Assembly: GCA_947466405.1 (NCBI GenBank)
Contig: CANICR010000002.1
Span: forward strand, 1 to 64,000
From: Chitinophagaceae bacterium
GTDB taxonomy: Bacteria > Bacteroidota > Bacteroidia > Chitinophagales > Chitinophagaceae
Direction of reading: 5' to 3'
Length of the DNA stretch: 64,000 bases
The position numbers and the translations under genes are program-made. Within the stretch, counting starts at the first letter, position 1. Each line of letters begins with the position of its first letter. The notes under the pieces are model-generated. The model saw only the letters and a program-made list of their open reading frames with translations, ran no database searches and was not told the origin of the DNA. This document shows positions 43,851 to 60,510 of this stretch, one piece after another.

Positions 43851-45503
43851 TTATTTATACAAGGTGTTATAATATTCTTTGGCCATTCTATTGCTGTCGA
43901 ATTGCGTACGAACATCATTCATTCCATTTTTTACAACTCTCCTCCAATTAACTGGATCATTGTAATACATTGGTAAAATTTCTTTTTCAAGAATATCATA
44001 CAGGTTATCCAAATCATATTGATCTTGTTCTTCAACAGACATTTTTTCATACTCAACCAATGGAACTACGAATCCATTTTTTCCATGATGAATAAATTCC
44101 CTTATCCAACCATCATTAGTACTTAAGTTGACAGATCCATTCATCGCTGCAGTCATTCCGCTTGTACCACTGGCCTCTCGGGGTACTCTTGGATTGTTAA
44201 GCCAAACATCAGAAACCTGTTTTAAGGTTTTACTCAATGTTAATTCATACCCAATACAAACAGCAACATTATTATACCCTTTACTAAGATTTACTAAATA
44301 ATTAAACTCACTAATTGCTGGATAATCTAATGGATATGGTTTCCCTGCCCAAACAAATTGAACTGGAAATTCTTTATTATTAACAAGCCTATTAAACTTT
44401 TCAAGATCTCTTGTAAGTAAATCAGCCCTTTTATATCCTGCGAATCTTCTGGCCCAAACAATTGTAAATACATCAGGATTAAATAGCTTGCCGGTTTGAT
44501 CAGCAATTACTTCTATTGCTGCTTTTTTAAGATCTCTTTTTCTGTCAATAAATAATTTCTCATCTTTCTCATCCAAATTTGCGTATAACACCTTATCCGA
44601 CCAGTACTGCCAATCCTGTGCATTGGTTATTGATTTAATATCACAAATATTATCATATTTTTTCCACATTCCATTACTAACTTCTCCATGAAGCATGCTA
44701 ACTCCATTCGCTAACTTTGCGAAGCGGAATGCTGCTAATGAATGATTAAACATATCATCAGTACAGCTCGTTAATTCTTTTACTTCATCTAAAGGCATAC
44801 CACAGAAATAGCCCATTTTTTCGCAAAGAAAAATATCATGCTTTTCGTTGCCTGCTTCTTCCGGAGTATGTGTTGTGAATACCAATTTTTTTTTAACCTC
44901 TAATTTATTACCATATTTATTATATAAATAAAATGCTGCACTAATTGAATGCGCTTCATTTAAATGATAATAATCAGCATGGAAATTTATTTCATCAATC
45001 AGCTTGGCACCTCCTACACCGAGTAGTATAAATTGAGCTACTTTGGTAGCAACATTGCCATCATATAACCTATGAGAAATTGTTTGGGAAACATAATCAT
45101 TCTCAGGTAAATCTGTTGTTAATAAAAACAATGGTGCACAATTGAAAGTTTCAGGATTGAGGTAAAGAGCTTTTACCCAAACAGGATGACTATGAATTTC
45201 AATTTGAAATCTTATACCGGTATCTTCCAAAAAACTATACAACTTTTCATTCCATTGCACCTGTAAGCTTTGATCTGGATTCCTTGCTTGATCATAATAT
45301 CCATATTTCCATAAAATACCAACACCAATCATATTCTGACGAAGTTCGTACGCACTTCTAAGGTGAGAGCCACTCAAATAACCCAATCCCCCACTATAAA
45401 TTTTTAAGGGCTGATGAACAGCATACTCCATTGAAAAATAAGCAACCTTACTCGCATAATCACTATTCACCTCGTAAGGAACCTTGTAGTGGTTAAAATT
45501 CAT
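43851..45503 (-). CDS. Short alpha-glucan phosphorylase-family (GT35) protein lacking the PLP lysine
   Basis: A 550-residue cytoplasmic protein of the short bacterial alpha-glucan phosphorylase type: VAYFSMEYAVHQPLKIYSGGLGYLSGSHLRSA at the N-terminus, FTTHTPEEAGNEKHD in the middle and VWARRFAGYKRADLL in the C-terminal Rossmann half. The family's cofactor motif reads EASGTSGM-T451-AAMNG. The position that is the PLP-binding lysine in known phosphorylases (M-K) is threonine here, as the DNA codon ACT (44151-44153, minus strand) confirms. Phosphorolysis of glycogen is therefore not assured; it could be a glycosyltransferase or use another mechanism. No other glycogen gene is nearby. Confidence 0.85.
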   Translation of the reverse strand: MNFNHYKVPYEVNSDYASKVAYFSMEYAVHQPLKIYSGGLGYLSGSHLRSAYELRQNMIGVGILWKYGYYDQARNPDQSLQVQWNEKLYSFLEDTGIRFQIEIHSHPVWVKALYLNPETFNCAPLFLLTTDLPENDYVSQTISHRLYDGNVATKVAQFILLGVGGAKLIDEINFHADYYHLNEAHSISAAFYLYNKYGNKLEVKKKLVFTTHTPEEAGNEKHDIFLCEKMGYFCGMPLDEVKELTSCTDDMFNHSLAAFRFAKLANGVSMLHGEVSNGMWKKYDNICDIKSITNAQDWQYWSDKVLYANLDEKDEKLFIDRKRDLKKAAIEVIADQTGKLFNPDVFTIVWARRFAGYKRADLLTRDLEKFNRLVNNKEFPVQFVWAGKPYPLDYPAISEFNYLVNLSKGYNNVAVCIGYELTLSKTLKQVSDVWLNNPRVPREASGTSGMTAAMNGSVNLSTNDGWIREFIHHGKNGFVVPLVEYEKMSVEEQDQYDLDNLYDILEKEILPMYYNDPVNWRRVVKNGMNDVRTQFDSNRMAKEYYNTLYK

Positions 45504-60200: not shown

Positions 60201-60232
60201 GAAGAATATTTTAATCAAAGATCATTAGCCCA

Positions 60233-60262
60233 TTGGCTTTAGTCGCCGCTAGTTATTTTTGC
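60233..60262 (+). promoter_or_regulatory. Promoter in the gap before ftsY, for a candidate small RNA
   Basis: TTG at 60233-60235 and TATTTTTGC at 60254-60262, 18 bases apart, are a good consensus match but no ORF follows. A weaker alternative is TTTG at 60310-60313 with TATTGTTT at 60332-60339, which would start transcription near 60345. Confidence 0.5.
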
Positions 60263-60266
60263 ATAC

Positions 60267-60480
60267 ACATTTTCCATCCACATTTATTATCAATAACCAA
60301 GCAATCTGATTTGAAAAAATCATTAACATTTTATTGTTTAATTATTGGCTAAAGGTTAACAGCAATAACTGCAAACCCATTGTATGTTTGTGGTGGAATT
60401 AATGTAGTAATAATTTTCTCATAAGCAGTTAGTTTTGGTAACCGAAGCCCTTATTCTTAAGGGCTTCTTTCATTTCTTTT
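60267..60480 (+). ncRNA. Candidate structured small RNA of unknown class (6S-like?)
   Basis: This fills the only gap longer than 300 bases (60201-60510). I see no plausible ORF. It has a promoter match upstream and an intrinsic terminator at its 3' end. Inside, nested arms can form one long rod: GGC (60347-60349) with GCC (60447-60449), GGTTA (60354-60358) with TAACC (60439-60443), a symmetric 7/7 internal loop, then TAACTGC (60366-60372) with GCAGTTA (60425-60431), and an apical AATTA/TAATT hairpin. A rod with a large central loop is the general shape of 6S RNA. Homology to a known class is not shown; the 5' end could be near 60267 or 60345. Confidence 0.5.
60444..60480 (+). terminator. Intrinsic terminator at the end of the candidate RNA
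   Basis: GAAGCCCTTA-TTCT-TAAGGGCTTC is a perfect 10-bp stem with a 4-base loop, followed by TTTCATTTCTTTT. The T-rich side is on the plus strand, so it belongs to plus-strand transcription and not to ftsY. Confidence 0.82.
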
Positions 60481-60510
60481 CCACAACAATTTTTGGAAAA
60501 TAAAATATGC

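Follow-up and report, generated by a model that had tools for sequence, protein, structure and literature searches.

A multicopy family of predicted small RNAs in Chitinophagaceae with complementarity to SusC start regions

The window, a 64,000-nt stretch of a Chitinophagaceae genome, contains a 310-nt gap (60201-60510) between a 100-aa open reading frame (ORF) downstream of surE and the convergent gene ftsY. Pfam identifies SurE and an SRP54-type GTPase (ftsY) on the flanks of this gap. A first-pass annotation had described a gap of more than 300 bases with no ORF and with a plus-strand terminator, and had read it as an RNA gene. These descriptions held up: there is no plausible ORF in 60201-60510, and a 10-bp intrinsic hairpin is found at 60444-60467. 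That the gap harbors a real, previously unannotated small-RNA gene is now strongly supported from sequence, because promoter, core and terminator are conserved in more than 100 genomes. We rejected a coding reading of the conserved element, as it lacks both a start codon and a conserved frame; ATG frames on the reverse strand adjoining the copies are just 8-22 aa long. A role as an ftsY leader or attenuator was also rejected, since the orientation is wrong.

All features of the predicted gene lie on the plus strand. A -33 element, TTAACA (60356-60361), and a -7 element, TATGTTTG (60383-60390), are separated by 21 nt and score 12/12 as a sigma-A-type pair; the -7 element is further defined by alignment and by the published TAnnTTTG consensus, which sits at -12 to -5 (PMC9723704). 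Given this position, transcription from the window copy would start near 60395, and the predicted RNA would span about 60395-60473 (~79 nt), its start being placed from the -7 box and its end from the terminator. The layout comprises a short A/T-rich leader, the conserved core TTTTCTCATAAGCAGTTAGTTTTGGTAA (60414-60441), and an intrinsic terminator with the hairpin GAAGCCCTTA-TTCT-TAAGGGCTTC (60444-60467) and a T-rich tail (60468-60480). Within the core, which is marked by its conservation and by complementarity to SusC start regions, a CAT at 60420-60422 lies opposite the AUG of SusC. The 5' half of the RNA is predicted to be unpaired, and the terminator is its single hairpin; terminator-like sites numbered 2, against 0.4 expected. 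Upstream of the promoter, an alignment of eight copies from the same locus (locus A, below) contains a conserved DNA box, TTAAC ... TTATTGGC (60323-60349), which is a possible activator site.

Two other features of the gap lie further upstream. A second TAnnTTTG, TATTTTTG, is found on the left side at 60254-60261 and in none of the aligned relatives. It belongs to the promoter that the first-pass annotation had favored (TTG-18-TATTTTTG, 60233-60261), which is present in the window and absent from 7/7 aligned relatives. In addition, a 42-nt sequence elsewhere (G000:C23:17391-17432) is 86% identical to positions 60283-60324, upstream of the RNA gene.

DNA searches with the gap gave matches in 35/35 other genomes of the genus, frequently at two places in each, and the part common to these matches is usually the final ~65 nt, comprising TTTTCTCATAAGCAGTTAGTTTTGGTAA and the terminator. 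A covariance model matched 146/200 Chitinophagaceae genomes and 77/104 genera, with up to 9 copies per genome; about a quarter of the family's genomes gave no match to it. Among 296 genomes sampled across the class, matches were confined to members of the Chitinophagaceae (0 of ~288 genomes outside the family). An exact 21-mer scan of GTDB genomes returned at least 116 stretches, and among the matches listed, records that bear a name are either Chitinophagaceae, with the cultured Ferruginibacter paludis and Paraflavitalea pollutisoli as two carriers, or Bacteroidota MAGs with less specific names. Nearly every copy observed in other genera has the same 24-nt core, an invariance that partly reflects how the copies were selected, as both the exact 21-mer scan and the covariance model are biased toward the core. 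The RNAalifold consensus on a mixed alignment mis-registers two terminator types; the covariance model is thus in essence a model of sequence, and we tallied changes in the stem apart from it. No Rfam 15 family was matched in the window at gathering score, the gap had no convincing match at E<=10, and in a scan of 20 relatives the sole Rfam 15 match was a tRNA in one flank. The predicted sRNA is best described as one of a multicopy family that is distributed across Chitinophagaceae. The window's own genome has a single copy; at five sites in other sequences, RNA-gene copies are arranged in tandem, each with its own terminator.

Two syntenic loci account for many of the 135 distinct copies. Locus A (37 copies), to which the window copy belongs, adjoins convergent ftsY, in most cases following surE and the 100-aa ORF. 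Locus B (72 copies) is a prfA-tatC locus, as identified by the Pfam domains PCRF/RF-1 and TatC, and does not neighbor ftsY. Terminator stems of at least 8 bp are present in 34/37 locus-A and 66/72 locus-B copies. The stem is kept via pair changes in relatives, with several pair types per position, while the TTCT-type loop is conserved and ~7 of the next 10 nt are T. On these comparisons, the conserved structure of the predicted RNA is the terminator alone.

The two loci carry different promoters, each of a class established in Bacteroidota (PMC9723704). At locus A, TTAACA and TAnnTTTG are spaced by ~20 nt, and 28/36 copies score at least 11/12 for this pair, against 0.04 expected. At locus B, a sigma-54 -24/-12 promoter, TTGGCA(T/C)-N4-TTTGC, is present in 65/71 copies, against 1.2 expected. 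Co-occurrence of rpoN with locus B is uninformative, since rpoN is found in most genomes and is nearly universal. We also observe that, in the sigma-54 promoters of locus B, a TTAACA is retained whose distance from TTTG is close to that of the -33 box at locus A (three copies serve as examples), and that this TTAACA/TTTG pair scores at least 10/12 in 56/71 copies, against 4 expected. Locus-B promoters may be dual-sigma, or may have retained an activator site. The two promoter types suggest one constitutive or growth-linked copy and one copy activated by sigma-54. As the sigma-54 regulon of Flavobacterium has ties to the quality control of proteins, to envelope stress and to gliding (PMC9723704), the sigma-54 copy may plausibly act as a brake through which stress limits outer-membrane transporters.

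The reverse complement of the core, TTACCAAAACTAACTGCTTATGAGAAAA, resembles a start region. In a blind pattern test (20-mer, 3 mismatches, 39 genomes), 10 of ~33 matches outside the RNA copies fell on genuine start codons, compared with 1/30 and 1/3 for permuted controls. With all ordinary genes taken as targets, start-region pairing was just weakly above that of shuffles. Because this general effect was weak, and because FopS, a known sRNA family of Bacteroidaceae that brakes SusC translation (PMC11697453), pointed to SusC, we tested the start regions of 87 SusC/RagA genes (TIGR04056) from 6 genomes, with start codons picked by a heuristic rule. The mean best duplex between the core and these regions was -15.86 kcal/mol, compared with -9.25 kcal/mol for mononucleotide-shuffled cores (sd of means 0.70), -10.5 for dinucleotide-shuffled cores (0/300 as low as the core) and -8.7 for random natural 28-mers of the window (0/600 as low); the 87 genes are paralogues and not independent, and shuffling the core holds them fixed. 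Duplexes of -14 or below are predicted for 71% of SusC start regions, whereas the figure is 9.4% for 958 other genes (Mann-Whitney p=1.6e-33) and 8.8% for signal-peptide genes; a mild A-rich bias shared by Bacteroidota leaders raises generic pairing slightly. The start codon is covered in 77/87 SusC duplexes, most of which span about -16 to +8. This complementarity is visible in all five larger genomes, with ATTACCAAAACTATCTACAAATGAGAT and AACGTAAAACTAATTTGCAGATGAGAAAAC as example sites. In the window's own genome, 3 of 11 SusC matches were scored, at -18.6, -17.5 and, for a poor third, -7.5.

Start codons with near-complementary sites are found in ten stretches, in genes that are not necessarily SusC; by eye, these include fructose-bisphosphate-aldolase-like, aquaporin-like and sigma-factor-like proteins. 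In the window, the start region of a glucan-phosphorylase-like gene (glgP, 43851-45503, minus strand) pairs with the core at -18.5. We rejected glgP as a target, as the position of the site is unconserved in orthologues, though these average -11.0 against -8.9 for shuffles.

Our data point to a ~79-nt trans-acting sRNA that, with high likelihood, represses SusC translation by antisense pairing at the start codon. A shutdown of SusC translation is probable because the invariant core is complementary to SusC mRNA start sites. The sRNA would be transcribed from the Bacteroidota sigma-A promoter formed by TTAACA (60356-60361) and TATGTTTG (60383-60390) and would end at the intrinsic terminator. 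Its unpaired core, 5'-UUUUCUCAUAAGCAGUUAGUUUUGGUAA-3', could then bind mRNAs across leader and start codon where the start region is similar to the core complement (ACCAAAACUAA...AUGAGAAA), above all the mRNAs of SusC/RagA TonB-dependent outer-membrane transporters. Such binding, perhaps aided by a helper protein, would keep ribosomes from loading, so that less transporter is made. Through its sigma-54 promoter, the prfA-tatC paralogue may tie this repression to stress or nutrient signals.

Alternatively, the RNA could be real and its core could chiefly serve as a sponge, either for an RRM-type RNA-binding protein or for the ribosome, with SusC pairing secondary. With 24 nt or more that hardly vary across many genera, the core is long for a seed that acts by pairing, multicopy families are able to act as sponges, and RbpB binds FopS in Bacteroides (PMC11697453). 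However, a protein reading both RNAs would favor the same sequence in each, whereas in SusC leaders it is the complement that is found, with the start codon at its center. We consider a sponge unlikely. A non-transcribed DNA element, either a mobile repeat or a mere shared terminator beside ftsY, is far less probable still: it would fit the convergence of the window copy with ftsY, the multicopy nature of the family and the terminator hairpin, but it leaves aside the promoters of two sigma types that lie at a near-fixed distance in most copies, the 28 nt conserved outside the hairpin, and locus B, which does not adjoin ftsY.

The first-pass annotation had gone further and drawn a 6S-like rod from nested complementary arms, with TATGTTTG in its loop as a promoter mimic. 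The arms do fold in the single window sequence, and TATGTTTG lies at 60383-60390 as described, but the helices of the rod are not conserved in syntenic copies. GCAGTTA is conserved and its TAACTGC partner is not: a complete 7/7 partner occurs in the equivalent upstream stretch of 1/36 locus-A copies, a chance-level result (2% expected from shuffles), and in 1/70 locus-B copies. The 5' arms are promoter-region DNA upstream of the predicted start site, with GGC and GGTTA forming parts of the conserved DNA box and the -33 element, and TATGTTTG itself matches the RNA's own promoter, TTAACA-N21-TAnnTTTG, at 12/12. Covariance models for 6S and 6S-Flavo did not match the gap at E<=10, nor anything in the window at gathering score, and the hallmark of 6S, a conserved long rod with a central open-promoter-like bulge, is absent from the predicted ~79-nt RNA, whose 5' half is unpaired and whose single hairpin is the terminator. 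An RNA that traps RNA polymerase through a promoter-like rod and loop, as the single-sequence fold with TATGTTTG in the drawn loop would have it, thus retains almost no credibility beside an unconserved helix, a conserved promoter element correctly spaced from TTAACA, and unmatched 6S models; the gap RNA is not 6S.

SusC/RagA transporters determine which polymers are edible to Bacteroidota. The Chitinophagaceae sRNA would be a second, unannotated family that shares the start-codon logic of FopS, in a large environmental lineage. The family lends itself to direct tests, since its seed hardly varies, its loci are defined in isolates and each genome has tens of predicted targets, and locus B is a concrete candidate for a sigma-54-controlled sRNA in Bacteroidota.

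In enterobacteria, the sigma-E sRNAs RybB and MicA depend on Hfq and base-pair close to start codons to silence outer-membrane proteins. The logic proposed for locus B is similar, in that an sRNA under an alternative sigma factor would silence outer-membrane proteins. The locus-B sRNA differs from RybB and MicA in sigma factor and sequence, and we do not claim homology. Closer to Chitinophagaceae, Rfp18 of Flavobacterium psychrophilum is likewise a conserved sRNA of Bacteroidota for which mRNA pairing is predicted, but it is strongly folded and acts on metalloprotease mRNAs (PMC9723704), which sets the gap RNA apart. GibS of Bacteroides has an R1 seed of the FopS type and, as predicted for the gap RNA, pairs at translation initiation regions; unlike the gap RNA, it has a second seed (R2), a dedicated promoter motif, induction by mucin-type glycans and other targets (PMC11697453).

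The gap RNA probably works like FopS. In Bacteroides thetaiotaomicron, FopS is multicopy and has a conserved seed in a single-stranded 5' part that precedes a Rho-independent terminator; the seed binds susC homologues around their start codon (PMC11697453). The gap RNA also has a single-stranded 5' region followed by a Rho-independent terminator, its core is predicted to pair around the susC start codon, and Chitinophagaceae genomes hold several paralogues, up to 9, with one in the window's own genome. The seed sequences differ. FopS, reported for Bacteroidaceae, has 12-15 copies per Bacteroides genome and canonical sigma-ABfr promoters (PMC11697453), whereas the Chitinophagaceae sRNA has 1-9 copies per genome and one syntenic paralogue with a sigma-54 promoter. 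The R1' seed of FopS aligns with the core over ~31 columns (TTT-TCAT-AG-TTAG-TTT-GGT-AAC; shuffle p about 0.02 for local and 0.12 for global alignment), and its predicted pairing with SusC starts of Chitinophagaceae exceeds that of shuffles (z -8.4), as expected whether the two seeds are homologous or have converged on one target site. One could envision, tentatively and with rather less than even confidence, a family-wide two-input circuit in which a housekeeping sigma-A copy and a sigma-54-activated copy of the sRNA act together, through a start-codon seed common to both, to tune the translation of dozens of SusC transporters in each genome. Such a circuit would parallel, in Bacteroidota, the sigma-E/RybB-MicA envelope response; it might have common ancestry with FopS, and if so would place this control of SusC deep in Bacteroidia.
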